Assembly (NCBI GenBank): GCA_030532425.1
Contig: JAUNLD010000002.1
Coordinates: forward strand, 34,628-92,864
Length of the DNA: 58,237 nucleotides
Reading direction: 5' to 3'
Source: Lautropia sp.
Lineage (GTDB): Bacteria; Pseudomonadota; Gammaproteobacteria; Burkholderiales; Burkholderiaceae_E
The notes under the pieces are model-generated. The model did no database searches. It had not been told where the DNA came from and saw nothing but the letters and a program-made list of their open reading frames with translations. Positions within the stretch are counted from its first letter, which is position 1, and each line of letters begins with the position of its first letter. Shown here one piece after another: positions 39,499 to 58,237 of the stretch. Both the position numbers and the translations under genes were made by a program.

Positions 39499-39749
39499 GG
39501 TGCGGCACGGGGCAGGGGGATGACAGGCTGACGATACCACTGCACGGGCGCTGGCGGGGGGCCGGGGGCAGACAGGCCGGCCGGGGCGCTGCATGGGCAA
39601 GCACCAGGATGGCACGCGTCAGGCCACGGCGCTACCAGGCCGGGCGGTGCCAGCATCGCTGGTGGCCGGCAGGGGCGGGTATCCGCGCAGCGGGCGCGCG
39701 TATTTGTTACTCTTTGGCCGTTTTATCGACGAAAATTTCAGGTGCTCCC

Positions 39750-40968: not shown

Positions 40969-43900
40969 TCAGATCAGGGGGCCCAGTGTCGCCGTGTCAT
41001 CCAGCGGCAGCGAGCCGTGCTTCCAGAGGCTGCCCGGTGTGGCCCATGCCGCGGGGCTGCCGGAGAGCAAGGGCGACGGCATCGCCTGGCTGCTGCTGGC
41101 GCCGGCGCTGGCCGGCTGGATCTCCGGTGTGCTGTCTCCCTCGAACAGCTGCCCGGCCTGCAGGGGGTCATCCGGCAGCCCGCCTGTCAGGTGCTGCTTG
41201 GTTACACGGGGAACGTGCAGCTTGCCTTCGGTTACCTCGAAGGTGTGGTCCTGGACCTGATTGTTGATGGGCGTGTTGCCCGGCTTGTTGGGGTCCTGCG
41301 TCTGGCCGTCACTGCCAAGCTGCGCCCGTCCCGACACCTCGATGAATGTGAAGCTGCCGCCGGTGTTGGCGCGGCTGTCCCATACCAGCCTGGACAGCTC
41401 GTTATCGAGGTGGTCATTGCCCACCACCTGGCCGTTGTAGACGGCGGTCGACTTGCTCAGGTCGGTCGGGTCGTCCTTGTCCAGCAGCCGCAGCGGGTAG
41501 TGTCGACTGTACTGCTCGAACTCGACGACGAAGGCATGCAGCCTGCCTGCGGCACTGCCGCCACCGCGGGCCGCATCGTGATGCACGTCGGCCAGCGTGG
41601 TGCCCCCCTGAAAGAGGTTGCTGGCCAGGGTGCCGCCTTCGATGTCATTGTCGATGTGCAGCAGCTTGCCGCCCAGCTGTGCGGCACGTGCCCGCGCCTC
41701 GTCCTTGGTCAGCCCCTCGGCGACCTGCACGATCTCGTAGGCGGTCATGTCCTGGCCGCTGTAATCGATGTAGCGCCGGCCGTTGTTTGTGAGGAAGGCC
41801 TGCACTTCCTGGCTGGGCTCGATCCGGAACCAGCGCTGGTCATCACCCGCGCCCGCCCGGGTGGCCAGCATGTGTTCGCCAATCAGAGACACGCCGTCCA
41901 GCCCCACCGTCAGGGCCGTGCTGTGGGCTGTCGTGCCGGCCCCTGTGTTGACGGAATGGACGGGCCCCGCTTCCTGGAGGGTGATGGTGCGCTCGGGCGT
42001 GCCGGTGATGACCTGGCCGGCCGTGTCCAGGGCCTCGAAGCGGAAGCTGCCGCTGTCGCCCTGTGCGCTGTCCCAGAACACCTTGTCGTAGTCCGCGCGG
42101 TCGATGAGGCTGCCGGCGTTCAGGCGGGTGATGTTCCCGTCCTTGTGCAGGTACAGCGCGGACTGGGCCGGGTCAAGGTCGAAGGCTTCGTTCACGGCCG
42201 TGATGCGCACCTGGGCCGGACTGGTCTGTACGTGGTTGCCATCGAACAGTGCACGGTCGATCTGCACGGGCTGGTTGTACGCGGTGCGCTGTGTTACCTG
42301 GCTGTCCGGGTAATCGGGGCCCTCGACCAGCTGGATCGTGATCGTGTTTCCAGTGCCCAGATAGGGGCGGCCATCGGTATGAAGTGGCGTGAACGTGAAC
42401 GCACCGCCCTGGTCGTTGGCGGCATTCCAGTAGATGCGGTTGAAATCGCTGGCGTTCACGATCCGCGTGCTGCTGGTGCCCGTTGTGCTCAACAGGCGCT
42501 GCGAACCATCATCCTGCAGGATGTAGAGGCTGGGGCCGTGCGAGTTGTTCAGGCCCTGGGTGATGGCCGTGATCCGGATGGCGGCTGGTGCCAGCGACGG
42601 ATTGGTGCCTGCAAAGACGGTTTCACTCAGGTGCACGGTCTGGTCGTGCCCGGCGGACAGCGTCTGGTTGGTGCTGCGGTAGGCCGGCAGCGGGGGCAGC
42701 TCCAGAGCTGTCAGTGTCTGTAGCGGAAGGCCTTCGATGGGGCGACGCTGGGCATCCAGGGCCATGAACTGGACCGTGCCGCCCTCGTTGCCGGCGGCAT
42801 TCCAGCGCAAGCGGCCGAAGTCAACCCTGGCAATCTCATCGTCGACGCCAACCGGGCGGCTGGTGCCGGTGCTGCTGTTGGCCGGGTCCAGGCTGAGGGG
42901 AGAGCTGCCCCCGGTGCTGTTGATGCTGACGATGCGGATGAAATCCGGCTGGAGATTGGAGTTCGTGCCGCCCAGGGCACGGGAGTTGAAGGTGGCTGCG
43001 CCATCCTGCGCGAGACGCATGATCTGCCGGCTGGGGTCGTACACCGGCGCCTGCGGCGATTCGTACACCGACACCTGCTGTGCGGTGGTGCCGATGATCG
43101 GCTGACCGTGTGCGTCCAGGGCCTCGAAGTGCAGGCTGCCGCCGTTGTTGTGGGCGGCGTTCCAGCGCAGCTTGCCCAGGTCGGCCTGCGTGATGATCTG
43201 GTTGACCTGGACGGCCGTGCCGGTTTGCGGGCCGGGGCCATCCGGGTCGAGCATCAGGGCGTCGCCGCTGCCGCTCGGCTGGCTGGGCGTGATGGCGGTG
43301 ATGCGCACGCTGGCGGGCTGGCGGGCCGGGTCGGTGCCGGCAAACAGGCTGGCATCCAGCAGTTTGCTGCCCTGGTGGGCCACCCCCACCTGCGGGGAGT
43401 CGACCGGGTAGGCCGGTGGTGCCCCCGACTCCTGGATGGTGATGTCCTGCTGGCGGCCATTGGGGATCAGCCGGTGGTTCTTGTCGAGCGGATGGAAGGT
43501 GAAGTGGCCGCCGCTGTTGGTCGAGGCATCCCAGCTCAGCTTGCCGAAATCGGCGGCCGACAGCACCATCGAGCCGCCTTCGAGCGGCACCGGCCGTTCG
43601 GTCGGCAGGCCACGGTCGATCAGCAGGGCGGGCCGGGCCGGATCGGTGTCGCCCTGTTCGCTGATCTGCTGGATCCAGACGGCGGCGGGAGCCCGTGCCT
43701 CGTCGGTGCCGACGAACAGGCTGCGGTCGAAGTGCAGGACCTGATCGTGGCCGACACGCAGCGTGGTGTGGTAGTCGGCATAGGCCGGCGGCAAGGGGGG
43801 CAGTTCCAGCACGTTCACCTGTTGCTGGCCGGCGCCGATGATGTTCTCCCGGTTCTGGTCCAGGGCACGGAACAGCAGGCTGCCGCCATCGTTGTGCTGG

Positions 43901-46900
43901 CTATCCCAGCTCAGGTGGGCAAAATCCGCCGCGGCGATGACGCTGCCCTGACCGATGGCCAGCTGACCGCCCTGGCCCCGGTGCAGCACCAGGGGCGACT
44001 GGCCGGCCGCCGTGTCGTTGGTGACATTGAGCTGTTCCACCCGGATGAAGGCGGGGGCGGTATGGGGTGTGTCGCCGATGAACAGGCGGGCATCCAGGGT
44101 CTGCACGGAATCGTGCGCTACCGAAACATCAGTACGGTAACTGGATGGATAGCTGGGCGCCGGCGGCGATTCGTAGACCCGCAGCTGCTGTTCGCCGGCA
44201 CCGGGAATCTCGTGGCGGAGGCCATCCAGCGGCACGAAGCGGAAACTGCCGCCGTCGTTGTGTTCGCTGCGCCAGTGCAGGCGGGGCAGATCAGTGATGG
44301 CAATCTCGCTGTCGACCCCGATCGGCGTGCCCTGGCCCTGGCCGTCGGCGGGCCTGAGATAAAGCGGGCTGACGCCGGGTTCCTGGTCGTTGCTTTCGTC
44401 GATGGCGGTGATGCGGATGAAGCGGGTGGAGTCCGACAGCGTGCCGTCCGAGGCACTGACCACCCCTTGCAGCTGCGACAGGGCAAAAGCGGTTTCACCG
44501 TTGTGGCCGACCTTGGTCGGCGTGTTGTGCGGCGAATAGTGGGGCGCCACCGGCGATTCGTGGATGCGGATCGTCTGTGTGTCGGCACCGATGATGGCGA
44601 TCTCGCCGGGCCCCAGCGCCACGAAGCTGAAATGGCCGCCGTCGTTGGTGCTGCTGTCCCAGCGCAACTTGTCGAAATCGGCCTGGGCGACGACATCGCC
44701 GTGTGCCAGCCGGCGTGCGCCCTGGGTGCCCTCATCGACGTACAGGGCCGAGTGGCTGTGGTCGGTGTCGGCGTCTTCCTGCACGCGCTCGATGCGGATG
44801 AAGGCGGGCGCCCGCGAGGGATCGGTACCGGTCAGCAGGGTGGGGGTGATCGCCAGGGTCTGGTCATGGGCCACCGACAGCGTGCTGTCGCCCTGGCCAT
44901 AGTGCGGCACGGGCGCGCATTCGTGGATGCGATAGTCCACCGGCGAGGCCCCGACCACGGGGGCACGGTCACTGTCCAGCGGAATGATGCGGAAGCTGCC
45001 GCCTTCATTGCTGGCGGTCTGCCAGCTCAGCGCGCTGAAACCGCTCAGGGGGATGACGTCGCCGTGGCTGACGGGTTTGGAGCTGCCGTCGCGATGGTGC
45101 ACGCGCAGCGCCGATTCGCTGCTGGCCTGGTCATGCTGCTCGCTGATGTTCTCGATGCGCACGAAGCGCACCGGATGCCAGCGGCCGAACACCTGCTCGC
45201 GGGTGTAGCGCAGTTCGCCGTCGTGGGCGACGGGGATTTCCCGGGGCCCTTCATATACGGGCGCCTGCTGCGATTCGTGTACGGTGATGGTGCGTGCGGC
45301 ACTGCCGGCGATGGGCACGCCCTGCGCGTCCAGTGCGCTGATGACCAGCCGGCCGCCGTCGTTGACGGCGCCATCCCAGTGGAGCTTGTCGAACAGGCCG
45401 GACGGAATGTCCTGGCCGGCTTTCAGGTAGATGCGCGCGCCCTGCCCATCGATGAAGAACAGCGGCGACAGGGCGGGAAGGCGGTCGCCGTTTTCATGAA
45501 TGGCATCGATGCGGATGCGCGCCGGCTTGTGGGCCGGATCGTTGCCGGCGAACAGCTCGGCGGCCAGCAGGGCAGCCTGGTCGTGGGCCAGGCGGGCCAC
45601 GGCCGGTGCGGCGTAATCCGGGGCCGGGGGCGATTCGTGCACCCGGATCTGTACCGGCGTGCTGCCGACGATCGGTGTGCCGTCATCCAGCACGGCACTG
45701 AAGCTCAGCGTGCCACCGGCGTTGCCGCTGGCATCCCAGTGCAGGCGCTGCACTTCGGCCTGCGACAGGATCTGGCCGGCCTGCACGGCGCGCCCGTCCA
45801 GCAGCAGCGTGTGGCTGCCCGGCGTTGCCTGTTCCGGGGTGATGGCATCCACCCGGACATGCGCCGGCTGCTGCGCCGTGCCCAGGATGCGGCTGGGCTC
45901 CAGGGCCAGCAGGCCGTCATGGGCCACCACCTGCGGTCCGCTGGGCGCCCCGCTGTAATCCGGTGGCAGCGGGTGTTCACGCACGGTGATCGTGCGGGAA
46001 TCCGAGCCGGCGATGGGCAGGCCATCCGCATCCAGTGCGCTGAAGACGATCTGGCCGCCGGTGTTGCCGGCCCCATCCCAGTGCAGCCGGCCAAAATCCT
46101 CCTGGGCGATGGGCTGGCCGGTACGCAGGAATTCCTTCTGGCCATCATCCCTCAGCAGGTACAGGGCCTGCTGGCCGGGGCCGGTGGCGCCCTCTGGCCG
46201 GATCGCGTCGAGGGTGATGAAGGCCGGGCGGGTGGCCGGCTGGGCGCCCTCGAACAGGGCTGCATCGAGGCGCAGGACCTGGTCATGGCCCAGTTCCTGC
46301 GTGGCCGGCGCCGAATAATCGGGGGCAGCCGGCGACTCGTGCAGGCGGATGCTGTGTGAAACCGGCTGGCCGCTGGCCGACAGGATCGGCCGGCCTGCCG
46401 CGTCCAGCGCAGTGAAGTGGAGGGTGCCGCCGGCACTGTGTGCGCCGTGCCAGCTCAGCTTGCCGAAGTCGGCAGCGTCGATGACCTGACCTTCCTGCAC
46501 GGCCACCGGCTCGTTGCCGCCCGGGCCATCGCGGTCCAGCGTCAGCAGCGGGCCGCTACCGGGCAGGCGGGCGACGATCGTGTCGATGCGGATGGCGGCC
46601 GGCTGCTGGGCCGGCTGGGTACCGCCGAACAGCTCGGGCGCCAGGGCCTGGTCGGCCTCGTGGGCCACGATCAGGGTGGGCGGCTGCGACGGATAACCCG
46701 GGGGCTGCGGTGATTCGTGGATGGTGATGGTTTGCGGCGTGGCACCGAGGATCGGCGTGCCATCGGCCAGCACCGGCACGACACTGAAGTGGCCGCCCTG
46801 GTTGCCGATACTGTTCCATTGCAGCGCCCGGGCCTCGTCGGCGCTGAGGATGTCGCCGGCCTGTACGGGTCTGCCGTTGACGCTCAGGGGCTGGTCGCCG

Positions 46901-48945
46901 TCCTGGGCATCCTCGGAATGGATGGCCTGCACGCGCACGTGGCTGGCCGTGTGGCTGCTGCCCAGCAGGCGGGCGGCATCCAGCAGCACGGTGCCGTCGT
47001 GCGCCACGGTCTGCGGGTCGGTGGGCACCCCGCTGTAATCGGGTGCCTGCGGGTGTTCGTGAATCTGCACCACCTGCTCGGTACTGCCGGCCAGCGCGCG
47101 CCCGTCGCTGTCGCTGGGCACGAAGCGGAAGCTGCCGCCCTCGTTGCCGGCTGCATTCCATTGCAGGCGCAGGAAATCGGCAAAGGGCACTACACTGCCC
47201 ACCGCCAGCGGCTGCGGGGCCCCGGCATCCGGATCGCTGTTGGTGCCGGGGTCGGCCGTACCTGTGCGCGGCAGCCGCTGCAGGGCGCCGGAGGGGGCGC
47301 CCGGGTTGCCATGCTCGTCGATGGCGGTGATGCGGATGTACTCGGGCTTGCGGCTGATGTCGGTACCGGTCAGGCGCAGCGGATCGATCTTCAGCGTGCC
47401 GTCGTGGGCCACGGCCAGGGGGCGGTCGGTGGCGTAGAGCGGCAAGGCCGGGTCTTCGTTGATGGTGATGGTCTGCTCGTCGGCCCCCAGAATCGGGGTC
47501 CGCTCGGCATTGGTGGGCACGAAGCGGACCTGGCCACTGTTGCCGATGGCGGCATCCCACGACAGCTTGCCAAAATCCGCCTGGGCAATCCACTGGCCGA
47601 CGCTGACCGGCTGGCCGTCCAGCCGCAGCGGGGCTTCAGCGCCCGGGGCGCCACCGCTGCGGGCGTCGATGGCCTGGATCAGCACGCCGGCCGGTTGCAG
47701 GGCCGGCTCGCTGCCGGCCAGCCGAATCGCCGGGATCAGCAGCGCCTGCTCGTGTGCCACATGGAGCGTCGGTGCGGCCGGATCGTAGACCGGCGGCGCC
47801 GGGTGCTCATCGATGATGACCTGCTGCTCGGGCACGCCGTTGATGACCGCGCCGTGTGCATCGAGGGGGACGAAGCTGAAGCGGCCGCCGTCGTTGCCCT
47901 GGGCGTTCCAGCGCAGCTTGTCGAAATCGTCCAGCGTGATGATCTGGCCCACCGACACGGCCTCGGTGCGCGGCTGGCCATCGACCATGCGCTCGATCAG
48001 CAGCGCCGGCGCATCGGCCGATTCGGCATTGATCGAGGTGATGCTCTCGATGCGGATCTGCGCCGGCGCGTGCTCGGGTGTCTTGCCGGCAAGAATTTCG
48101 GCATCGATGATGATGCTGCCATCATGCGCCACCGATTTGGTGACGTTGCTGCTGCTGTAGTCCGGCGCCACCGGCGGTGGGGCCGGGTGTGGCGGCGCAG
48201 GTGGCTGCGGGGCCGGTGGCTGTGGCGCTGGTTGCTCGGGCGCTGGCGCCGGTGGCGGAACGGGCGACGGGGCCGGCATGGGTGCCGGCGAGGGGGCAGG
48301 GCTGGGCGCTGCCTCGGGAGACGGGGCAGGGGACGGTGCGGGGGAAGGTGCCGGGGTGGGAGCCGGCGTCAGGGGGACATCGTCCGCAGGGGCCGGCCTC
48401 TCCAGACCGAGGCCGTCGCTGGACGGTGTCGGCGCGGCCCTGTCACCGCGGTGCTTGCCGCTGCCGACGGCGATCACACCCGCCAGACCGGCCAGACCCG
48501 CTGCCATCTGCAAGGGGCTGGGGGGCTGCGGAAAATCGTTTATCAGGCTGCCGAACGCCCCGGCGCCCTGGTGCGCCGGCAGCGCGCTGTCGCTGCCCAG
48601 GTGAGGGGCCGCCCCTTCACCCAGGCCGGTGGCCCCAATGGCCCTGGGGCTGGCCGTCACGCTGCCCTGGGCCGTGTGGTCGGCCAGTTCTGTCCAGGCC
48701 AGGCCGTCATCCTGCGCCAGCAGCGGGGCTTCATCGTCGTCGTCATCCTGGTCACGCACGACACCATACTGATAATCTGGCAGTGCCTCTTCATTCCGTC
48801 CGCCGGTCGAGGCCGATGGCAGACGGCCTGCGGTCGTCATCGGGGATCTTCCGGGCAGAGGGCGGCCAGCCGCCTGGGGAGCAGGCGACACCGGCAGGCC
48901 ATCGGCAGAGGGCTGGATGGAAGCGTCTGGCGTGTGCGTGTTCAT
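40969..48945 (-). CDS. Giant repeat protein 1 with C-type-lectin-like domain
   Basis: A 2658-residue protein. Residues 1-130 are low complexity and acidic, with no signal peptide; near 145-165 is a Gly/Ala-rich hydrophobic stretch (LQMAAGLAGLAGVIAVGSG); 190-260 is a Pro-Ala-Pro-Ser spacer. Then come 17 repeats of about 115 residues (roughly 48170 down to 41950). Their consensus has VAHDxxLxLDxxLFxGTDP, FIRIxxI, ADFxKLxWDxxxNxGGSF, FxALDxxGxPIxG and QTITIxExPxAPDY. An 18th unit is split by a C-type-lectin-like domain (TAYEIVQVAEGLTKDEARARAAQLGGKLLHID ... HAFVVEFEQY). The end is TLGPLI. I do not recognise the repeat; each unit looks like a beta-sandwich, as in adhesins. The ATG at 48945 has no good ribosome site. 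A surface or secreted adhesin is inferred. Confidence 0.8.
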   Translation of the reverse strand: MNTHTPDASIQPSADGLPVSPAPQAAGRPLPGRSPMTTAGRLPSASTGGRNEEALPDYQYGVVRDQDDDDDEAPLLAQDDGLAWTELADHTAQGSVTASPRAIGATGLGEGAAPHLGSDSALPAHQGAGAFGSLINDFPQPPSPLQMAAGLAGLAGVIAVGSGKHRGDRAAPTPSSDGLGLERPAPADDVPLTPAPTPAPSPAPSPAPSPEAAPSPAPSPAPMPAPSPVPPPAPAPEQPAPQPPAPQPPAPPHPAPPPVAPDYSSSNVTKSVAHDGSIIIDAEILAGKTPEHAPAQIRIESITSINAESADAPALLIERMVDGQPRTEAVSVGQIITLDDFDKLRWNAQGNDGGRFSFVPLDAHGAVINGVPEQQVIIDEHPAPPVYDPAAPTLHVAHEQALLIPAIRLAGSEPALQPAGVLIQAIDARSGGAPGAEAPLRLDGQPVSVGQWIAQADFGKLSWDAAIGNSGQVRFVPTNAERTPILGADEQTITINEDPALPLYATDRPLAVAHDGTLKIDPLRLTGTDISRKPEYIRITAIDEHGNPGAPSGALQRLPRTGTADPGTNSDPDAGAPQPLAVGSVVPFADFLRLQWNAAGNEGGSFRFVPSDSDGRALAGSTEQVVQIHEHPQAPDYSGVPTDPQTVAHDGTVLLDAARLLGSSHTASHVRVQAIHSEDAQDGDQPLSVNGRPVQAGDILSADEARALQWNSIGNQGGHFSVVPVLADGTPILGATPQTITIHESPQPPGYPSQPPTLIVAHEADQALAPELFGGTQPAQQPAAIRIDTIVARLPGSGPLLTLDRDGPGGNEPVAVQEGQVIDAADFGKLSWHGAHSAGGTLHFTALDAAGRPILSASGQPVSHSIRLHESPAAPDYSAPATQELGHDQVLRLDAALFEGAQPATRPAFITLDAIRPEGATGPGQQALYLLRDDGQKEFLRTGQPIAQEDFGRLHWDGAGNTGGQIVFSALDADGLPIAGSDSRTITVREHPLPPDYSGAPSGPQVVAHDGLLALEPSRILGTAQQPAHVRVDAITPEQATPGSHTLLLDGRAVQAGQILSQAEVQRLHWDASGNAGGTLSFSAVLDDGTPIVGSTPVQIRVHESPPAPDYAAPAVARLAHDQAALLAAELFAGNDPAHKPARIRIDAIHENGDRLPALSPLFFIDGQGARIYLKAGQDIPSGLFDKLHWDGAVNDGGRLVISALDAQGVPIAGSAARTITVHESQQAPVYEGPREIPVAHDGELRYTREQVFGRWHPVRFVRIENISEQHDQASSESALRVHHRDGSSKPVSHGDVIPLSGFSALSWQTASNEGGSFRIIPLDSDRAPVVGASPVDYRIHECAPVPHYGQGDSTLSVAHDQTLAITPTLLTGTDPSRAPAFIRIERVQEDADTDHSHSALYVDEGTQGARRLAHGDVVAQADFDKLRWDSSTNDGGHFSFVALGPGEIAIIGADTQTIRIHESPVAPHYSPHNTPTKVGHNGETAFALSQLQGVVSASDGTLSDSTRFIRITAIDESNDQEPGVSPLYLRPADGQGQGTPIGVDSEIAITDLPRLHWRSEHNDGGSFRFVPLDGLRHEIPGAGEQQLRVYESPPAPSYPSSYRTDVSVAHDSVQTLDARLFIGDTPHTAPAFIRVEQLNVTNDTAAGQSPLVLHRGQGGQLAIGQGSVIAAADFAHLSWDSQHNDGGSLLFRALDQNRENIIGAGQQQVNVLELPPLPPAYADYHTTLRVGHDQVLHFDRSLFVGTDEARAPAAVWIQQISEQGDTDPARPALLIDRGLPTERPVPLEGGSMVLSAADFGKLSWDASTNSGGHFTFHPLDKNHRLIPNGRQQDITIQESGAPPAYPVDSPQVGVAHQGSKLLDASLFAGTDPARQPASVRITAITPSQPSGSGDALMLDPDGPGPQTGTAVQVNQIITQADLGKLRWNAAHNNGGSLHFEALDAHGQPIIGTTAQQVSVYESPQAPVYDPSRQIMRLAQDGAATFNSRALGGTNSNLQPDFIRIVSINSTGGSSPLSLDPANSSTGTSRPVGVDDEIARVDFGRLRWNAAGNEGGTVQFMALDAQRRPIEGLPLQTLTALELPPLPAYRSTNQTLSAGHDQTVHLSETVFAGTNPSLAPAAIRITAITQGLNNSHGPSLYILQDDGSQRLLSTTGTSSTRIVNASDFNRIYWNAANDQGGAFTFTPLHTDGRPYLGTGNTITIQLVEGPDYPDSQVTQRTAYNQPVQIDRALFDGNHVQTSPAQVRITAVNEAFDLDPAQSALYLHKDGNITRLNAGSLIDRADYDKVFWDSAQGDSGSFRFEALDTAGQVITGTPERTITLQEAGPVHSVNTGAGTTAHSTALTVGLDGVSLIGEHMLATRAGAGDDQRWFRIEPSQEVQAFLTNNGRRYIDYSGQDMTAYEIVQVAEGLTKDEARARAAQLGGKLLHIDNDIEGGTLASNLFQGGTTLADVHHDAARGGGSAAGRLHAFVVEFEQYSRHYPLRLLDKDDPTDLSKSTAVYNGQVVGNDHLDNELSRLVWDSRANTGGSFTFIEVSGRAQLGSDGQTQDPNKPGNTPINNQVQDHTFEVTEGKLHVPRVTKQHLTGGLPDDPLQAGQLFEGDSTPEIQPASAGASSSQAMPSPLLSGSPAAWATPGSLWKHGSLPLDDTATLGPLI
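41950..48170 (-). repeat. Seventeen coding repeats of about 115 codons
   Basis: Diverged protein repeats inside giant gene 1. Each ends in a strand of the type TITIHESPxAPDY that leads into the next unit. Copies differ at most positions in the DNA, so the array is old rather than recently amplified. Boundaries are approximate. Confidence 0.8.
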
Positions 48946-49287
48946 GATGGAAGGAGAGGGCGGGACGTACCTCGCCCCAAGGGTCCTGGCCATTATGGGG
49001 AAACGCAACGCATACTTTTTGGCCGGTGGGGCCAGCGGTCGAGGGCATCCGTCGGGCGTCGGCCCCCGTGTGGGATCTCACGGCGCTGCCGGATGGGCAC
49101 TGGCCGGACATCGGCAGGGCAGTGGCAGGAGGGCGGCAGGACACCGGCAGGACGGGGGGCCCGAGCCTTCGTCCGGCATGGGGGCACGACGCACGGCGTT
49201 CCCCAAAAAAAACGCCCCACTCGAATGAGCGGGGCGTTGCGGCCAGGGAGGTGTCCCTGGCCTTGGCCTGCCAGCCGGAATCCGGAT
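48946..49287. other. Region between the oxidase and giant gene 1
   Basis: Non-coding. Holds the terminator of the oxidase gene (49205-49238) and the presumed promoter of giant gene 1. A stretch at 49100-49155 has loose GGCAGGAC-type repeats. No clear -35/-10 pair and no gene seen. Confidence 0.5.
49205..49238 (-). terminator. Rho-independent terminator of the oxidase gene
   Basis: On the minus strand AACGCCCC and GGGGCGTT (plus 231-238 and 211-218 of 49000) pair, with inner CTC/GAG around a GAAT loop, followed by a run of eight Ts. One of the clearest terminators in the window. Confidence 0.9.
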
Positions 49288-51123
49288 TTACGGATTCGGC
49301 GTCGGGTTGATGCGGATCATGCGACCCTTGGACGGCACGCCTTCCTTGTTCAGCGCAAAGACCATGTAGTAGCCCGGCGGCGTCAGGTACTTGTTGGCCG
49401 GCAGCTGGATGTCCAGCGTGTTGCCGTTGGCCGTGAAGTCCAGTTGCAGGAAGCGCTGGTCCATGTCGAAGGAGTGGGTGACGGCACCGGTCTTGATGAG
49501 CGTGACCTTGCTGATGTCAGCCGCATCCGGCGAGCCCACATTGAACTTGGACCCCGGCTCGACCACCATCGCCAGTGCACCGTCGCTACCCTCCAGCGTC
49601 GGGCGGGTGGCCAGCGTGCCGTCGGCATTGAACAGGTAGCCGGGGCGGTAGATCTGGGCGTTCAGGTTGTGAACCGGGCCCGGGGCACCACCACCCGAGG
49701 ACAGCACCGAGCCATCCGGCAGCAGCAGCGTCAGGCTGTGGTACAGGCGCTGGGCGGCAAACTTGCCGGCATCGGTGAAGGTGCGCGTCTCGGGGTTGAA
49801 GATCATGGCGTCATAGTTGATTTCGCCAGCGTCTTCGTTGATCGGCTCGACCATGTCGAGCAGCAGGTTCTTGGTGGAACCACCCGAGATCAGCACATTG
49901 CCATCCGGCAGCATGGTGGCGCTGCTCCAGTGATAGATCTTCTTCAGCTTGGGCAGGTCGGTGAGGACCGGCTTGTCGCCGTTGATGTCGATCAGCGTGG
50001 CATGCGGTGCCGAACCACCGAATTGCAGGATCAGGCCCGGACGGACCATGACGGTGGCCGAGGTGGCCGACCAGCCACGGTAGAAGTCGGGATCCTTGGC
50101 GGCTTCGGCGGGATCGCTGTGCGGGATGTCCCAGTGCGCACCAAACATCTTGATGGCGCCCTTGCCCTTCGGATCGACCTCGTACATGTAGTGCGGATCG
50201 AAGCCGAAGATCTTGCCGTTGGGGGCGACGAAGTTGCGCGGGTAGTTGTTGTCGAAGTAGTTGCCCGTGGCCCCACCGTTGGTCTTGTAGGTGGCCAGCG
50301 TGTCGATGCCATCCAGCAGGCGGAAGGTGCCGTCGAGGTTGCGGACTTCGGGGTGCTTCTCGCCACTGGTGCCGCCCTGGATGTAGATCTCGCCACTGGG
50401 CAGCGTGGTGCTGGAGCCGTACCAGCGCGGCAGCTGCATCTGGTTGGCTGCCGGCTTCAGGCTGTTGTCGACCGGGCTGAACAGGTTGACGTCCTTCACA
50501 CCGGTGTTGGTGACCTTGCCGTTCTTGAGCAGGTCGCCACCGAGGATCAGCAGCTCACCCGTGGTGGGCACCAGGATCTGGGCCGCGCAGAACAGGAAGG
50601 TGTTGGTCTGGTTGGGCAGCAGCATGTGCGAATCGGCGGCCACACCCAGGGTGGGATCCCAGACGTCGTAGTAGAAGGTGTTGCCGGCCCGGATGCTGTA
50701 GTCGACGCCGAAGGTCATCACGCGGCCATCGGGGGTGAGGGCGGCGTGAATGGCGATCACCGGCCAGTCGAACAGCGGCGTCCAGGAACCCTGGCTCTTC
50801 AGTTCGGGCGAGGGGGTGGGGGCATCGAGGCGGGTGACACCCGTGCCACTCTGGGCCTGTGCCGTCGGTGGCACGGCGCCGCCCAGACCCAGACCCGGCG
50901 CGGGCTTGCCGTTGGCGATGGCGCCGTTGGTACCGTTGTTGTCGGTGACCTGGGCCGGCGGATTGTTGGGCGTGGTCGCGCCAGGCGTGGCGGTACCGGC
51001 ATTCTGGCCCGACGGCGATGCGCTGACGGAGCTGTCGGAATTGCTGCCACCGCCGCCGCATGCTGCGAGCACGGTCAGCACCGCAAGAGATGCGAGCTTG
51101 AAAGAGGGCGTAGAGACTTTCAT
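49288..51123 (-). CDS. Galactose/glyoxal oxidase-like copper radical oxidase lipoprotein
   Basis: A 611-residue lipoprotein: MKVSTPSFKLASLAVLTVLAAC gives the lipidated Cys22, then a low-complexity linker (23-100) and a Kelch-type seven-bladed propeller with a C-terminal DUF1929 domain. All copper-radical-oxidase residues known from fungal galactose oxidase appear present: the Cys of the Tyr-Cys cofactor (TNTFLFCAAQIL), its partner Tyr (LPRWYGSSTTLPSGEI), the ligand pair Tyr-His (RLYHSLTLLLPDGSVLSSGGG) and the last His (THSFDMDQRFLQL). Such enzymes oxidise an alcohol or aldehyde and make H2O2; in Streptomyces, GlxA acts on cell-surface glycan. It has its own terminator and lies between giant genes 1 and 2 on the same strand. 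Substrate unknown. Confidence 0.85.
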   Translation of the reverse strand: MKVSTPSFKLASLAVLTVLAACGGGGSNSDSSVSASPSGQNAGTATPGATTPNNPPAQVTDNNGTNGAIANGKPAPGLGLGGAVPPTAQAQSGTGVTRLDAPTPSPELKSQGSWTPLFDWPVIAIHAALTPDGRVMTFGVDYSIRAGNTFYYDVWDPTLGVAADSHMLLPNQTNTFLFCAAQILVPTTGELLILGGDLLKNGKVTNTGVKDVNLFSPVDNSLKPAANQMQLPRWYGSSTTLPSGEIYIQGGTSGEKHPEVRNLDGTFRLLDGIDTLATYKTNGGATGNYFDNNYPRNFVAPNGKIFGFDPHYMYEVDPKGKGAIKMFGAHWDIPHSDPAEAAKDPDFYRGWSATSATVMVRPGLILQFGGSAPHATLIDINGDKPVLTDLPKLKKIYHWSSATMLPDGNVLISGGSTKNLLLDMVEPINEDAGEINYDAMIFNPETRTFTDAGKFAAQRLYHSLTLLLPDGSVLSSGGGAPGPVHNLNAQIYRPGYLFNADGTLATRPTLEGSDGALAMVVEPGSKFNVGSPDAADISKVTLIKTGAVTHSFDMDQRFLQLDFTANGNTLDIQLPANKYLTPPGYYMVFALNKEGVPSKGRMIRINPTPNP

Positions 51124-51822
51124 GGCGATCTGTCTATCCGATCAAGTGAAAAACGTCCCACCACACGTCGCTGCCCGCTCGTGGCGAGCAGCGTCCTGCA
51201 CGGTGCGAATGGAAAAGAATCCGACAGAAACGACTGCATTCATAATGAGGTCATCCTGCCATTCGTCAGCGGAAATCATCCGCTGTTTTGGTCATTGTCA
51301 CATTAAAAAAATGCACAATCCAGCAAAGTGACTCCGCATTTCTGATGAAAAAAATTCTAACGAAGGCGTCCACGATCAAGAATGGGCCGCTCAAACCGTG
51401 AAGAGGGTGTGCTTGGCAGGGCAAGTCTGCGCTGCATTGCACAAGTTGTTGAAAAGAAACGGTTTTAGTAACCTGGCCACGAAAGAGGCCGCCGATGGGG
51501 CAGACACGGATCGCCACATACTTCACAATTGGACACAGCTGCGGTCTCCCGGGTGTAGCGCGCCGTCACCACGGATCATGACCAAACGTAACAAGGCTGA
51601 GGGCTTTTGTCGGATAAAACCAGCCGCCAGATCGGGTGGGGCTGGCAGAAAATCCGGAAAAATTCGCCAGGCATGGGCGGATATCCGCCGGGCATGGGCT
51701 GCTGGACGGCAGGAGGGGGTGGATACGGCCTGAAAATGCGCTGAAAAAGGGGCCGCCCCCGCGAAGCCATGGGGGCTTGGGCGGGGGCGGCGGGGCCTGC
51801 GCGTGGCCTGGAACGGCCTGGA
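51124..51822. other. Long intergenic region between giant gene 2 and the oxidase
   Basis: Non-coding. The part at 51290-51370 has two seven-base A/T runs about 42 bp apart, typical of bent promoter DNA, and probably drives the oxidase gene. A perfect palindrome GGCGGATATCCGCC lies at 51676-51689. The terminator of giant gene 2 is at 51744-51791. An 86-codon open frame at 51266-51526 has no coding features. Confidence 0.55.
51744..51791 (-). terminator. Terminator of giant gene 2
   Basis: On the minus strand GCCGCCCCCG pairs with CGGGGGCGGC (plus-strand 782-791 and 752-761 of 51000) across a 20-base loop, then CCCTTTTTC. It begins about 30 bp after the stop codon. Confidence 0.75.
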
Positions 51823-54800
51823 TCAGATCAGGCCGTCAGAGACGCTGTCGTAGGGCTGGTGTCCGGCCAGCAGTGCGTTCACCGCGTGGGAGGGGCTATA
51901 GAAACCCTGCTCGGTGCCAGGGACGGTGCCGGGCTCGCCGCCGGCCGCGGCCGTGATGGTGGTGTCGGGCTGGTTGTCCGTCTGGGCGCTGCTGTTGGGC
52001 TGTAGGCCGGCCTGGTTGCCCTGCGCTGTACTGGGCTGGCCGTTCGCCTGCCCGTCAGGGGGGCTGGTGTGCCCGCCGGGCTGATCCTGTGAGCTGTCCA
52101 CCGTGCTGGCCGTCACCCGATTCGGGTCGTCGCCGGGGGCATCGGTCTGGGCGGCATCATCCACGTTGCCGTTGCCGTTGCCGTTGCCGGTGTCAGTGTC
52201 GCTGGCGTCTGCCTGGCCATTGGGACTGTCGCCTGCCTGGCTTTCGCGAATGGTGTCAGGCTGGCTGTCGGGTTGGCCTTTGCCGGGGCTGTCGGGCTGT
52301 TGGCCGGTCTGGCCGTCTTGCGCTGTATTGGGCTGGCCGTCGGCCTGGGCCGCGTCATCGCGCAGGGCGTTGTCGTCCTGTTCCGAGATCTGCACCCGGA
52401 TGCTGGGCGAGCTGGCGATGGGGTTCCTGTACTCGTCCAGGGCCTGGAAGCGGAAGCTGCCGGCGATGTTGTGGGTGGAATCCCAGAACAGCTTGTCGAA
52501 GTCGCCCGATGGCACAGCCAGCAGATCGTCTGCGCTCAACGGGGTTTTCTGGTCGCCGGCTTCATTGCCCCGGTAGAGGACGGGGTGATCGTCCGCCTGG
52601 TGGTTGGCGCCGATGGCGCTGACCTCGGTGATGCGGATGAAGGCCGGCTTGTTGACCGGCGGGATGCCGTTGAAGATGCCGTTGTCGAGCACGCGAAAGC
52701 CGGTGGTGCCCAGCGGGAAGCTCTGGGAGGCCAGGCCGTTGCCCGGGTAGCCGGGCGCGGCCTGCTGCTCATGGATGGTTATGGTCTGGACTGCACTGCC
52801 GGCGATGGGCTGTTTGTGCTGATCCAGCGCCTGGAAGCTGAAGCGGCCGCCCGTGTTGGTGCGGGCATCCCAGCTCAGGTGGCCAAAGTCGTTGAAGGCG
52901 ACGACGTCACCCACTTTCAGTTCGGCGCTGCTCAGGCCGGCGCGTGCCACCGTCAGGGCGCTGTGCCCGGTATCGCTGTCGGCCGTTTCGGTCACGTCGG
53001 TGATGCGGATCCAGGCCGGGGCCTTGGCGGCATCGGCGCCATCGAAGAAGACGCGATCGATGGCGGCCGTGGTGCTGTCGTGGGCCACGGTCTGCCGGGC
53101 AGGCTGCTGGCTGTAATCCGGCGCCTCGGGCAGCTCGTAGACGGTGACGGTCTGAACCTTGCCCAGGTGGTTGCCATGCTGGTCGAGGGCGACGAAGCTG
53201 AAGCTGCCGCCCCGGTTGTCGGCCGTGTGCCACTGGATCTTGCCCAGATCCGCTTTCTGGAGGACGTCGCGCGCCTTCAGCCCTTCGGGCGTGCCGTCGG
53301 CATCAAGCCTGACCAGGGCAGAGCGGGCCGGGTCGGTGTCATCGATTTCGTGCACGCTGATGATCTTGATGCGGTCGGGGGCCCGCTCGTCGGCGTCCCC
53401 CTTGAAAACCGGTGCCGTCAGGGGCAGCACGTCATCCCGGGCGATGCCGTAGATCTGCTGGCCATCGTTTGGATAGGCGGGCGGTTTCGGCTGTTCGTAC
53501 AGGGTGATCGTCTGCTCGGGCGCGCCTGCGATGGGCTGCTGCCGGGCATCGAGGGCGATGAAGCGCAGGCTGCCACCGCTGTTCTGCTTGCTGTTCCAGT
53601 GGAGTTTGTCGAAGTCGAAACGATGAATGATCGCTCCTTCGTCCACGGCCCTTTCCTGGCTGGTGCCCAGGTGCAGGATCAGTGGCGACTTGGCGTTGCC
53701 GGTGTCGGGGGCGCCGTTTTCCTCGACGCCCACGATCTTGATGAAATGGGGCTGCCTGCCCAGGTCCACGCCCTGGAAGAGGCGGGCGGGCAGTTGCCTG
53801 ATCCAGTCCTGCGGTACTGAAAATTCGGGCTTCTCGACGTTGTTGCTGTAGTCGGGGCCCTCGTAGGGCGGCGGGGCAGGGGGCGTGGCCGGCTTGTCCG
53901 GGGCGGCTCCGTGGTCCGGCGACGGCGTGTCGGTGGCGGGCGGCTGGCCGGGGGCGGTGGCATCACCCTGCGCACCTGGCGGCGTTGGCGTGGCCGGTGC
54001 GGGCGGCCGGACAGCGGCCGATTCGGTGATCGACAGCGTCACCGGCGTCGAGCCGGGCACGGTCTCGGCGGCGCTGCCTTCGTCGGTCAGCACGGCCTGA
54101 AGCCGGATGGAGCCCACCCGGTTCTGGTCGCCATTCCAGACCAGCCGGTTGAGGTCGGCGGCGCGGATCGTCTGCCCTTCGAGAATCGGCGTGACCTGGC
54201 CGTCTGCCCCCTGGATGCCCAGGGGCGACTGGTAATCGTTGTACTCGATGACGAAGTGCGAGAGCGTCCCGGGCGTGGCATCGTGCGAGTGGATGCCGTC
54301 CTGTGGGCCGCCGGCACGCTTGACGGCATCGTGGCTGGCGTCGGCACCGGGCATCCGGTTGCCGCCAAACCAGGCCCCGTGGGCCGCCAGATGTTCGCCG
54401 GCGGCGCTGGTGTCGTCGTCGGTGGGGCCCAGCACGCCGAACAGGTTCTGGCTCAGCCAGCGCAGTTCGTCGGCGTCGTTGATCTCCAGCAGCTTGCCGC
54501 CCATGGCGGCGGCACGCTGGATGGCATCGGCGCGGCTGATGCCGCCGTCGACCCGGATGACTTCGTAGGCGGTGAGCTGGGGCGGGCTGGCGGTTGCGCG
54601 GGCGTCGTCGCCCTCGGCCTTCACCAGCATCCTGAGGGTCTTGCCGGTGCTGCCGCCCGGTGATGATTCGGTGCCATAGCGGATGACCCGGGCTTCGGGG
54701 TCTGTCCCGTCGGCGGCGAGGATGCGGTCGATGCGCACATACTCCAGCTCGACGCCCGCCACCGCCGCCTGCCGGAAAGAGGCGGCGCTCAGGCGGGTGA

Positions 54801-55350
54801 GGCCCTCCACGGCCACGTGGGGCGCGTCGGCCTCGCCCTGGGCGATGGCCGGGCCGCTGGGCTGTGGGGTGTGGTGGGATGGCGTCTCGCCGCCCTCGGC
54901 GGGGCTATCGTTGCGGCCTGCGGCGGGCGTGGACGGTTCGGTGCGGGCCGGTGGCTTCTGGGCCAGCGGGGATGGGCCGTGATGCGCTCCGGCGGGGCCG
55001 GCACCCTGGCCGCTGCCCGCGCCGGCCGCGGCCACGGCCACCATCCCCAGCACGCCCCCGGCGATGGCCAGCGGGCCGAGGCCGGCGCCTTCGCTCAACA
55101 TGATCTCGTCGCCGGCCAGGGCCTGGGTCTCGGCCGATGCGGGCACGGGCTGCGGCCGGCTGCCGGCATCTGCCAGCAGCACGGCCTCGTCCGTGGGCTC
55201 GGCCTGGGGGGCCGATGACCGTGTTTCGTCATCGTCCAGCAGGTGGCTGCCGGAGTGAGGGGGCGCCTTGAGCGGCTGCTGGGCAGCCCCGGCATCGGCC
55301 TGGGACTGAAGGTGGGCGTGGGGCATGTGGGCAGGACGCGGTTTTGCCAT
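51823..55350 (-). CDS. Giant repeat protein 2 with C-type-lectin-like domain
   Basis: A 1175-residue paralogue of giant protein 1. Residues 1-85 are low complexity; a Gly/Ala-rich hydrophobic stretch (LGPLAIAGGVLGMVAVAAAGAG) follows near 90-112. The lectin-like domain comes first here (about 255-375: TAYEVIRVDGGISRADAIQRAAAMGGKLLEIND ... GAWFGGNR ... HFVIEYNDY), again inside a repeat unit. A Pro/Ala linker and four clear repeats follow (about 500-1000), then a Gln/Asp/Asn/Gly/Pro-rich region and a C-terminal tail NALLAGHQPYDSVSDGLI. The ATG at 55350 is preferred over a TTG at 55359; GAGAGA lies upstream. A secreted or surface protein is inferred; no RTX repeats or signal peptide were seen. 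Confidence 0.78.
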   Translation of the reverse strand: MAKPRPAHMPHAHLQSQADAGAAQQPLKAPPHSGSHLLDDDETRSSAPQAEPTDEAVLLADAGSRPQPVPASAETQALAGDEIMLSEGAGLGPLAIAGGVLGMVAVAAAGAGSGQGAGPAGAHHGPSPLAQKPPARTEPSTPAAGRNDSPAEGGETPSHHTPQPSGPAIAQGEADAPHVAVEGLTRLSAASFRQAAVAGVELEYVRIDRILAADGTDPEARVIRYGTESSPGGSTGKTLRMLVKAEGDDARATASPPQLTAYEVIRVDGGISRADAIQRAAAMGGKLLEINDADELRWLSQNLFGVLGPTDDDTSAAGEHLAAHGAWFGGNRMPGADASHDAVKRAGGPQDGIHSHDATPGTLSHFVIEYNDYQSPLGIQGADGQVTPILEGQTIRAADLNRLVWNGDQNRVGSIRLQAVLTDEGSAAETVPGSTPVTLSITESAAVRPPAPATPTPPGAQGDATAPGQPPATDTPSPDHGAAPDKPATPPAPPPYEGPDYSNNVEKPEFSVPQDWIRQLPARLFQGVDLGRQPHFIKIVGVEENGAPDTGNAKSPLILHLGTSQERAVDEGAIIHRFDFDKLHWNSKQNSGGSLRFIALDARQQPIAGAPEQTITLYEQPKPPAYPNDGQQIYGIARDDVLPLTAPVFKGDADERAPDRIKIISVHEIDDTDPARSALVRLDADGTPEGLKARDVLQKADLGKIQWHTADNRGGSFSFVALDQHGNHLGKVQTVTVYELPEAPDYSQQPARQTVAHDSTTAAIDRVFFDGADAAKAPAWIRITDVTETADSDTGHSALTVARAGLSSAELKVGDVVAFNDFGHLSWDARTNTGGRFSFQALDQHKQPIAGSAVQTITIHEQQAAPGYPGNGLASQSFPLGTTGFRVLDNGIFNGIPPVNKPAFIRITEVSAIGANHQADDHPVLYRGNEAGDQKTPLSADDLLAVPSGDFDKLFWDSTHNIAGSFRFQALDEYRNPIASSPSIRVQISEQDDNALRDDAAQADGQPNTAQDGQTGQQPDSPGKGQPDSQPDTIRESQAGDSPNGQADASDTDTGNGNGNGNVDDAAQTDAPGDDPNRVTASTVDSSQDQPGGHTSPPDGQANGQPSTAQGNQAGLQPNSSAQTDNQPDTTITAAAGGEPGTVPGTEQGFYSPSHAVNALLAGHQPYDSVSDGLI

Positions 55351-55744
55351 CGTGAACAATCTCTCGGGAAAGGTTGTGGTGCCGGGGCGCCGGCATCAGC
55401 GGCACGGAAAAAAGGGGCGCACGGCTGGCGCTGTGCATGACGACCGGGCGCGATGCGCGGGGTCATGGCAGGGGGGCGGTGCGGGCGCAGGCAGGAGCGT
55501 GCCCCTGTTGCGCCGGCAAGACACGGCCGGAGGGCGCGAATGGTCGCTGGCGGCTGCTGCATGCCATGCGGCGGGCGGCTGCTGTGAAATAGTTCCGCAC
55601 GGTAGACAGGGCCGTCTGGATGGCGTGCGGACGCAAAGAAAACGGGCCACGTCCCGAAGGAAGTGGCCCGTTGAACGGGGCCGCCGGGGAGCTTGCGCCT
55701 GCCGGCGGGCGCCAGGTGCCTGGAGGGCACCTGGGGGAGGGGGC
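55351..55744. other. Region between giant genes 3 and 2
   Basis: Non-coding. Contains the terminator of giant gene 3 at 55634-55672 and about 280 bp that should carry the promoter of giant gene 2. GC-rich, no gene seen. Confidence 0.5.
55634..55672 (-). terminator. Terminator of giant gene 3
   Basis: On the minus strand AACGGGCCAC pairs with GTGGCCCGTT (plus 663-672 and 641-650 of 55000) across a 12-base loop, followed by TTCTTTGCG. Ten-bp perfect stem. Confidence 0.85.
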
Positions 55745-58237
55745 TTAGATCACCGGGTTGTTCAGGTCCTCGGTGCCCAACAGCGCGCTGAGGTTCTGAC
55801 CGCCGTCGAAGGACTTGGCCACCACCTCGCCGGCTTCAGCCTTCTCGGTGATGTTGATGGTCTTTTCCTTGGCACCCTCTGCCTGCTCATTGCCATCGAT
55901 AGCCGTAACCTCGACGAACTTGATGGTGCCGCCGTTGTTGAACATCGAATCCCAGCTCAGCTTCTCGAGCTTGTCGGCAGCGATGATCGCACTGGTCTCA
56001 CCCACCACCACCGGGTTTTTCTGAGCCGGGCTGTCCCCTTCCACCAGCAAACCGGGCTGCTGGGGTTGTAGTTGGCGAACTCGACGACATAGGCAGAGGC
56101 CTTGCCCGTGGCCGCTTCAGCATCTTCAAAACTGAAGTTGTCTGCTTCGGTACCGGTCGAGAAGATCACCTCCTTGTCAGCTGCACCTGTGGCGAGGTTG
56201 TCAGACGGGTTGGTGAACCAGGCGCCTTTGGTGACGTCTCCACTGGCGGCCTCAAGATTCAGTTTGCCCATCAGATCGGTCGATGCCTTGATCCAGTCGA
56301 GTTCTGCCTGATCGCTGATCTCGAGCAGCTGACCACCCATCGCCTTGGCTGCTGCCTTGGCATCCTCCAGCGTGATGCCCTCCGCACCCGCCTTGATGAC
56401 CTGGTAGGCGGTCTTGGTGACATTGTCGTCCTGGCCAACGGTGCGGACGATGCGCTCGGCCGCCAGCTCGTCTGCCCGGGGATCGATCGCGGTGATCTTG
56501 ATGTAGGTCGGTTCGGCCTTGCCTTCAACGCTGTGATCGAACAGGGCTTTCTCGAGTGCCGTGACGGCATTCTTGTCGACCTGCTTGTTCTCGGCCTCTG
56601 GCTTGTAGGCGGTTTCAGTAATCGTCACCGTCCGTTCGATCGCGCCCAGGTGGGTATTACCCTGCTCATCGATCACCGAAATGAACTTGAAGTTGCCATT
56701 CTCGTTCTTCGAGCTGTCCCACTTGATCTTGTCGAAGTCGGCGGCTGCGATCACCTGGTTGAGCGTGACCGGATCACTACCCTTCAGCAGCGTGGCAGCT
56801 TCCGCATTCGCGCCTTCTCCATTCTTGATCTCGGTGATCTTGATGTACTGGGGCTGGGCTTCGACTTTCGTGCCGTTGAAGAGCGACACGTCGAAGGTGT
56901 GGATCTTGTTCTCACGAACGTTTTGTGCCTCGTTCAGCTCGCTGTAGACAGGTGCTTCGCGGTGCTCGTTGATGGTCACCGTCTGCGTGGCCGGTGCATT
57001 GGCGAATGCCTCACCATCGGCCTGAACGGCAGTGAACTTGAATGAGCCTCCGTCGGCCATGCTGGCGTTCCAGACGAGCTTGTTCAGTTCGGCCACTTCG
57101 ATGACAGCGCCTTCCTGAACATTGCCGTCCTTGTACTTCAGCGTGCCCGCATCGGCATTCTCACCGCCACCCTTCTTGATCTCGGTGATCTTGACATGGG
57201 TTGCCTTGTCCGTCGCGTGGTTCCCCTCGAAAGCGGCTTTCATGGCTTCGAAGGTGTGGGCCTGCGCGTCATGCGCGACCTGAGCCGTGTGCTGGTTGCC
57301 TTCGGCGTAGGTCGGGACCTTCTGTTGCGGCGGAGCGTCTGCTTCCTCGATCGTCATCGTCTGGGCGGCAGGACCATTGGCGATGGGCTGGCCATCAGGC
57401 TGAACCGGCGTGAACTTGAACGAGCCACCTTCTGCCTGGGAGGCGTTCCAGACGAGTTTGCTCAGTTGGCTGAGGTCGATGACGGTGTCTGGGGTCACGT
57501 TCTGGCCGTCGTATTTCAGCGTATCGGCGTCAGCTGCGTCCGAGGCGTTTTTCTTGATCTCGGTGATCTTGACGTGCGTGGCCTTGGTTGCACCCGTACC
57601 TTCGAGCAGGGATTTCTGGGCCTCGAAGCTGTGCGAGGCATTGTCATGCGTTACCGCAGCCTTGATGTCCGACGGGTTGTCGTAGGCAGGTACCTGCTTC
57701 TGGCCCGGGTTCTCCTGGTTCTGCTGGCCACCCGGGGTTTGCTGGTTCTGGCCCGTACCGGAGCCTTGCTGTGCGTTGCTGTCAGGCGGAGTTTGCTCGG
57801 ACGGGGCCTGATTGGCTGCAGGAGGCGCTTCCGTGATGGTGATGGTCTGTGCCTTGGCGCCGGGGATGGCGGTGCCATTCGCGTCAGCCACCGGGACGAA
57901 CTCGATGGTGCCGCCGTTGGCCAGCGCTGCATTCCAGACGATCTTGTGGAAGAACGTCTGGTTCAAGACGGTCTCGCTTTCACCGTTGACGACTTCGTTC
58001 TTGACGCCGTCAGCGGTTTCGAAGACCAGGGCTTTGGTCTTGTTGTCTTCGGAAACGTCCGGCAGTTTGACGTTGGTGATCTTGATGAATTGCGGCGCAT
58101 TGGCAGCGTCCGACCCCTTGAACAGGTCGGCACTCAGCGTGGCGTCGGTCTTGTCCTGCGCAACCTTGGCAGCCTGGGTGTTGCTATCCGGATAGGTCGG
58201 CAGCTTGACGTTGCCACCGGTCGAGCCACCGGTCGAA
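55745..58237 (-). CDS. Giant repeat protein 3, partial, with a frameshift near the 3' end
   Basis: The frame enters from beyond the window end and is open through 58237; about 830 codons are visible. It has five units of the giant-protein repeat, with a more regular, lower-GC and Lys/Glu-richer style (VKITEIKKG, VAELNKLVWNASMADGGSFKF). The last unit is split by the lectin-like domain (TAYQVIKAGAEGITLEDAKAAAKAMGGQLLEISD ... GAWFTNP ... AYVVEFANY). Just after it the frame breaks: read on, it ends at 55957 with an Arg/Trp-rich nonsense tail. Shifting at a CCCC run (56062-56065) restores the repeat, and the gene ends at 55745 with NLSALLGTEDLNNPVI, like the other two paralogues. The intact form is inferred to be secreted or surface-bound. 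Confidence 0.75.
56062..56065 (-). other. Probable frameshift site in giant gene 3
   Basis: The minus strand has AACCCCAGCAGCCC here. One more C would read N-P-Q-Q-P-G-L-L-V-E-G-D and join the two halves seamlessly, matching the equivalent point of giant protein 2 (YNDYQSPLGIQG). Confidence 0.7.

Follow-up and report, generated by a model that had tools for sequence, protein, structure and literature searches.

Giant repeat proteins of Lautropia with a lectin-like insert: a genus-specific family of candidate type I exported adhesins

Introduction

What are the giant repeat proteins encoded side by side in one locus of Lautropia, by which route do they leave the cell and what might they do outside it? 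The stretch of DNA analysed here, hereafter the window, comprises 58,237 nucleotides (contig C88, positions 34628-92864) of the 3.12-Mb draft genome of an oral Lautropia (G000; 88.8% complete, 125 contigs), and it carries three minus-strand genes, referred to as genes 1, 2 and 3, that are built from the same repeat. An initial annotation of the window had described these genes as a family of three paralogs made of a unit of about 115 residues that matched no named domain, and had compared the resulting chain of units with those of adhesins. We argue that the genes probably belong to a Lautropia-specific family of giant fibrillar adhesins that are free of RTX repeats, are exported by a type I secretion system and present a C-type-lectin-like domain (CTLD) on a stalk of repeat units.

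The repeat unit and the proteins that carry it

A hidden Markov model (HMM) with 111 positions was trained iteratively on the six family members from this genome; applied to these same proteins, it recognised 45 stretches in total, the full units having E-values of 3.5e-22 to 4.6e-39 in this self-trained search. The repeat common to the three minus-strand genes was thereby confirmed, with a unit nearer 111 than 115 residues and the consensus VAHDGTLALDASLFAGTDPARAPAAIRITAI...ALLLD...VSAGQVIAAADFDKLSWDAAKNEGGSFRFVALDADGEPIAGASEQTITIQESPAAP. Gene 1 (P0001) has 17 full units followed, at the C-terminal end, by one that a CTLD splits and of which the HMM recognised the second half alone; gene 2 (P0002) has 4 full units plus both halves of a split one, and gene 3 in its longer reading (P0005) has 4 full units with split stretches at both ends. 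The repeat numbers of 17 and 4 given earlier for genes 1 and 2 hence stand for full units, whereas the five or more of gene 3 become four full and two split ones. The shared repeat also stands, but the family is not limited to three, as P0006 (511 aa, encoded upstream of gene 3), P0007 (1981 aa, contig C90) and P0008 (532 aa, contig C54) belong to it too. P0006 has no full unit and just the two halves of one split unit, P0007 has 9 full or near-full units and a late half, and P0008 has 2 units. Because the genome is incomplete, more paralogs may exist in it.

Mean identity among the units within one protein was 27-37% (33 of the 45 stretches compared). At the DNA level one repeat family was detected in gene 1, its copies being 61-72% alike, and the divergence is therefore old. 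A long paralog of another Lautropia genome (G002; L047:7943-11176) contains three copies at 1467-bp spacing with 96-99% identity over 300 nt; judged from this likeness the 1467-bp block is a recent duplication of about four units, and the number of repeats has therefore changed recently in that protein. In a long paralog of G007 a region of short-period repeats (12-18 bp; L039:6627-7126) lies upstream of the units and is probably a low-complexity linker. Averaging structural propensities over 246 unit sequences, a crude procedure, gave mostly strand with short helix-like stretches, which suggests that the unit may fold as a beta-sandwich.

A genus-wide family at a conserved locus

A profile of the repeat (A1) matched all nine Lautropia genomes, the present one included, and none of 28 other genomes of the same family or of 24 genomes of other families; the genome G004, which is in 720 contigs, was matched by one weak match only (2e-5). 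In samples of the order and of the phylum, where at most 11 candidates were scored per genome, matches were found in 5 of 399 genomes, all of them Lautropia, and in 2 of 398, namely the present genome and one unit (E=7e-5) in an open reading frame (ORF) of genome G761. Searching genome contigs with P0002 yielded no match, and searching them with a family member of G007 yielded two Lautropia records. The repeat unit thus appears, in the sequences searched so far, to be found only within the genus. Each genome may hold several paralogs: G000 has six, G007 five and G001 about eight or more, and the stretches of G002 contain two long ones plus a fragment, in what is an incomplete census. Altogether we collected 47 family ORF rows, with fragments, duplicates and overlapping loci counted as found.

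The island of repeat genes sits between glnE and a nitrilase/tldD/aroG block. Both flanks recur next to repeat genes in G001, G002 and G007, and also in G008, on the left side by the gene next to glnE; in G005, where only the left side lay within the fetched stretch, the left flank was recovered. Since the same housekeeping genes flank it in other Lautropia genomes, the island reads as a core locus. Other members lie at separate sites, on C90 and C54 of the present genome and at further sites in G001 and G007. A mobile or viral origin was set aside, as the flanks are conserved and tblastn searches of P0006 against plasmids and of P0002 against phages returned nothing.

Relatives of the repeat

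The earlier failure to match the repeat to a named domain was borne out by HMM and profile searches of Pfam, NCBIfam and PDB, which gave no convincing match and weak, scattered hits only. Matches of P0001-P0003 and P0005 (CarboxypepD_reg, MRP-S34, PA_Ig-like and others) all fell below cut-off and were rejected. Comparison of 69 unit pairs with Pfam at E<=0.05 returned SAF six times (best 1.4e-4), SatD three times (best 1.4e-5), CarboxypepD_reg three times and Cadherin_4 once (E=0.0063), and because these matches are scattered over families we take them as chance. The repeat profiles found nothing in PDB below E=0.05, and consensus units had no match in Pfam.

It could be argued that the repeat is a strongly diverged cadherin-like or Ig-like stalk repeat of RTX adhesins, in which case the stalk would be new in sequence only; such an origin is compatible with our preferred explanation and we give it somewhat less than an even chance. 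The single Cadherin_4 match, the strand-rich pattern of the units and the one matching unit of G761, a genome of the same class, all point in that direction. That unit lies in a 6697-aa ORF, and profile-profile comparison of the Lautropia repeat with the G761 units gave a probability of 0.4%, which together with the empty PDB and consensus searches speaks against the idea; the G761 unit was accordingly dropped as a homolog, and the relationship to bacterial cadherin-like or Ig-like repeats is left with weak sequence hits. The 6697-aa open frame itself (L068 / L071, contig C59) contains acidic repeats that look cadherin-like by eye, and Pfam at E<=0.001 returned nothing for a 1051-aa piece of it. 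The Lautropia stalk unit could qualify as a new Pfam domain.

A C-type-lectin-like domain inserted in the repeat

The initial annotation missed a second domain, a CTLD that lies inside a repeat unit. A CTLD model of the family matched 46-232 residues in 33 of the 47 family ORF rows, and four members carry a full-length CTLD of 156-168 residues with 46 invariant columns out of 174. One of these four (the L048 member) passes the Pfam model Lectin_C with 30.8 bits against a cut-off of 22.6, over profile positions 1-71 of 107; P0006 remains below the cut-off (17.6-18.6 bits), 6 of 22 split units match Lectin_C at E<=0.05, and a consensus composed from the four full CTLDs scores 27.5. As genes 1-3 have no Lectin_C match of their own in Pfam, their inserts are assigned through the family alignment. 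When the four full CTLDs were turned into a profile, it matched 77 PDB sequences at E<=0.1, and the best 60 of them all bear names that we take to be those of C-type-lectin-like proteins. Over a whole chain the lowest E-value was that of phospholipase A2 receptor (7.6e-14), to which several domains contribute, its best single stretch having 0.0043; among one-domain chains bitiscetin ranks first (2.4e-5). These matches extend only to about position 113 of the 159 positions of the profile.

The insertion into the repeat is regular. Among 37 CTLD rows, in which overlapping loci were counted twice, the second half of the repeat follows the CTLD in 33, and a first half is recognisable before it in 13. 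Because the repeat resumes at position 36-42 in 28 of those 33, the insertion site hardly varies and lies between the AIRITAI and ALLLD stretches of the unit. By homology with C-type-lectin-like proteins, the CTLD may be an adhesive domain that binds a partner.

A candidate export system and the ends of the proteins

Genes for a HlyD-type protein (TIGR01843) and an LssB-type exporter (TIGR03375) score over cut-off in 9/9 Lautropia genomes and are adjacent by coordinates, with one LssB-type exporter over cut-off per genome. In the present genome both belong to an operon that also contains a TolC-like gene and lies beside the cytochrome c maturation genes on contig C85, and so not beyond position 58237, where the initial annotation had suggested looking for type I export genes. 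RTX repeats, the calcium-binding nonapeptides that precede the C-terminal signal of LapA-type adhesins (PF00353), and LapG, the protease by which their release is controlled (PF06035), were found in none of the nine Lautropia genomes, the corresponding controls being positive in 2 of 14 and 1 of 14; LapD, the c-di-GMP receptor (PF16448), was likewise found in none of the nine, yet in none of the controls either. As no RTX cargo was seen in these genomes, the repeat proteins are the strongest candidates, and we infer that the LssB-type system exports them. NCBIfam scans of P0001, P0002, P0003 and P0005-P0008 detected no type I target domain or retention module, and Pfam scans of P0001, P0002 and P0005-P0008 detected no inverse-autotransporter beta-barrel.

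We examined the N-terminal region for hydrophobic segments in 35 of the 47 ORFs, leaving out 12 whose first recognised domain begins before residue 120. The strongest N-terminal segment is typically rich in Gly and Ala, like SPLAIGAGVLGVVAVAAAAGGGSSG, and lies mostly within residues 97-346; in 32 of the 35 no other segment of the ORF is stronger, although in several it is weak. The C-terminal tails were compared in 33 rows, after dropping 5 that extend past the end of their locus, 5 whose frame is broken or whose end is out of frame, and 4 duplicates. The pattern L[LMIVW]D, which was picked after inspection of the tails, occurs within the last 25 residues in 21 of them, against a mean of 3.3 and a maximum of 10 in 2000 rounds of shuffling and 9 of 490 mechanical control ORFs, and the final residue is I, L or V in 24 of the 33. 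The closing 25-residue stretch of gene 1 is a possible export signal.

Taken together, the tandem units, the inserted CTLD and the LssB/HlyD pair in all nine genomes lend support to the adhesin-like chain first proposed for this locus. In the explanation that we favour, the chain would be made without an evident Sec signal and would be exported C-terminus first through the LssB/LapB-type type I secretion operon on C85, the tail carrying the signal that this exporter would recognise. The N-terminal region, which contains the hydrophobic segment rich in Gly and Ala, would stay behind and keep the fibre in the envelope, and the units of about 111 residues would fold outside the cell into a stalk. 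The CTLD, inserted in a loop of a single unit that sits close to the far end in the long members and at the chain start in the shorter ones, would be held out sideways, where it may bind a partner.

Evidence against the adhesin interpretation and its rivals

A number of observations weigh against this explanation. With regard to the CTLD, the copies of the long members are short and without the middle region of the full CTLDs, so that binding by these members is doubtful. Moreover, several near-complete members have no CTLD, namely P0008, the L041 and L045 pairs, L046 (L046:7577-13966, 2130 aa) and L049 (L049:11737-16023, 1429 aa), the remaining rows without a CTLD being fragments. Reduced CTLDs in the long members would also be expected if the proteins took the same secretion route and were then released or layered as a scaffold, as matrix or sheath proteins whose CTLD is a structural remnant without ligand. 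LapF-like and S-layer proteins are precedents for such extracellular scaffolds, and the range of 0 to 17 full units per protein in the present genome, together with the missing LapG and the lack of a recognised retention module, would fit them. Set against this, the insertion site of the CTLD has been kept and four members retain it at full length with its invariant columns, and we consider a scaffold unlikely.

With regard to export, the TolC-like protein scores 178 bits, below the cut-off of 225, and the exporter, which lies apart from the repeat genes, could carry other substrates. Among the matches listed, G001 and G006 hold a second, weaker pair (HlyB-like 370.7 and 360.5 bits, HlyD-like 117.5 and 116.3 bits). 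The LssB-type exporter is not specific to the genus, as 13 of the 52 relatives that lack the repeat have it as well (E<=1e-220; 9 of 28 in the same family and 4 of 24 in other families), and its co-occurrence with the repeat is not independent evidence because of shared ancestry. The tail motif is missing in 12 of the 33 tails and in 5 of the 6 members of the present genome, all three window genes included, so that only P0007 has it; the tails of the window genes (such as PLDDTATLGPLI) resemble it only loosely. The absence of a Sec-type N-terminus, finally, was judged by eye only.

These points bear on a further alternative, in which the Gly/Ala segment would act as an internal signal for a different or undescribed export system and the C85 operon would serve other cargo. 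The missing tail motifs, the separation of the repeat genes from the exporter, the lack of RTX repeats in the nine genomes and the lack of a type I target domain in the NCBIfam scans are all consistent with it. However, the exporter is found in every one of the nine genomes and RTX cargo in none, Pfam scans revealed no beta-barrel, and across the genus the tail motif is far above the shuffles, for which reasons this alternative seems to us improbable. We therefore retain the type I exported fibrillar adhesin as the preferred explanation. A broader proposal would see in the family a complete genus-private system, that is, a stalk family without known sequence relatives, paralogs generated by unit duplication, LssB export free of RTX and LapG, a short acidic-hydrophobic tail and a CTLD head, together serving as the glue by which Lautropia would hold the centre of cauliflower-shaped plaque consortia; we hold this version to be doubtful.

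Features of the window and neighbouring genes

The coordinates are collected in Table 1. The lengths of 2658 and 1175 aa reported at the outset were reproduced as the shorter readings of genes 1 and 2, that of gene 1 from an internal ATG, whereas the figure of more than 830 residues for gene 3 runs across a frame break. The actual frame of gene 3 has 1245 codons (L013:2585-6322), extends to the window equivalent of 59,694 and contains an assembly gap (X residues); its C-terminal end is broken between about 55.96 and 56.12 kb and the tail lies in another frame. A decayed gene and an assembly error are both possible causes of the break, and we left the sequence unmended. The lower GC content of gene 3 (0.60 against 0.67-0.71) was confirmed. 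A tRNA-Ser called by ARAGORN at 55687-55779 (+) overlaps the coding C-terminal end of gene 3 and is for that reason probably spurious.

Between genes 1 and 2 lies P0004, which is Kelch/galactose-oxidase-like (GO-like_E_set, 87.5 bits; GlxA model, 140 bits with a cut-off of 800). Comparison with the stretches fetched from other Lautropia genomes revealed no counterpart, and we therefore set it aside as probably not part of the adhesin system.

Table 1. Coordinates of the repeat genes, their parts and other features (window positions unless a genome and contig are named)
Feature	Position	Strand	Remarks
Gene 1 (P0001)	40969..49008	-	2679 aa from TTG or 2658 aa from internal ATG
17 tandem repeat units, gene 1	41965..48132	-	Repeat HMM
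Stretch taken as CTLD-split unit, gene 1	41263..42000	-	Reduced CTLD match about 41560-41745
Hydrophobic Gly/Ala segment, gene 1	48457..48513	-	Strongest hydrophobic stretch of the protein
Last 25 residues, gene 1	40972..41046	-	End ...PLDDTATLGPLI; without L[LMIVW]D motif
Gene 2 (P0002)	51823..55359	-	1178 or 1175 aa; CTLD-split unit followed by 4 full units
CTLD-split unit, gene 2	54007..54828	-	CTLD match about 54232-54573
4 full repeat units, gene 2	52375..53814	-	Repeat HMM
Hydrophobic Gly/Ala segment, gene 2	55024..55080	-	Hydrophobicity
Gene 3, in-window part	55957..58237	-	Open at window edge, frame continues beyond; 4 full units, then first half of CTLD-split unit (CTLD match about 56068-56412)
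Other-frame piece of gene 3	55745..56116	-	Second half of the last split unit and tail, beyond the frame break
Galactose/glyoxal-oxidase-like lipoprotein (P0004)	49288..51123	-	Between genes 1 and 2
glnE (glutamine synthetase adenylyltransferase)	36673..39615	-	Left anchor of the island
Second HlyB/HlyD-like pair	G001:C6:1483881-1489970 and G006:C50:616-5108		Below type I cut-offs

Significance and comparison with known systems

Excerpts of a review place Lautropia at the centre of cauliflower-shaped consortia of plaque (PMC8306857), and the proteins described here might plausibly play a role in these consortia. A search of the open-access literature turned up no account of Lautropia adhesins among the matches listed. 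With a genus-specific family of candidate adhesins that bear a lectin-like domain, and with a clear candidate exporter, the organisation of these consortia becomes open to a test by knock-out of one gene. The lack of RTX and LapG in turn offers a simpler setting in which to study the recognition and retention of type I adhesins.

Adhesins of the SiiE/BapA type are giant, free of RTX repeats, built of repeats and exported by type I systems, and in these respects the Lautropia family, by description, would resemble them; a CTLD insert is not known among their features. Like intimin and invasin, as presented in passages of PMC7718877, the family would combine an Ig-like stalk with a lectin-like domain; those proteins are inverse autotransporters with a beta-barrel, which was not found in the Pfam scans of the Lautropia proteins. 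Intimin_C is named a distant relative of C-type lectin domains in parts of PMC8286594, where fibrillar adhesins are defined by stalk domains together with an adhesive domain. Like the fibrillar adhesin-like proteins of those parts, the Lautropia proteins have tandem stalk domains plus a domain presumed adhesive from CTLD homology, and unlike them they have a stalk unit absent from the Pfam searched and carry the presumed adhesive domain inside a stalk unit.

The closest parallel may be that of the RTX adhesins whose ligand-binding domains, according to excerpts of PMC12077191 and PMC10865825, bud from Ig-like 'split' domains and project off the fibre axis. As described there for AhLap of Aeromonas hydrophila, MpIBP and FrhA, the Lautropia proteins have long tandem extender units and a putative binding domain inserted in a 'split' unit, from which it would project sideways, and they would likewise be secreted by a type I system. 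Unlike these adhesins, they have a unit of another sequence and no recognised retention module, RTX and LapG are lacking in the nine genomes, and a CTLD stands in place of the CBM, RTX, PA14 or peptide-binding domains named in those excerpts. Since searches for RTX repeats and LapG came back empty, we do not place the Lautropia proteins in the LapA/RTX family; what they share with LapA-type systems is a LapB/LssB-type exporter, encoded in all nine genomes apart from the repeat genes.

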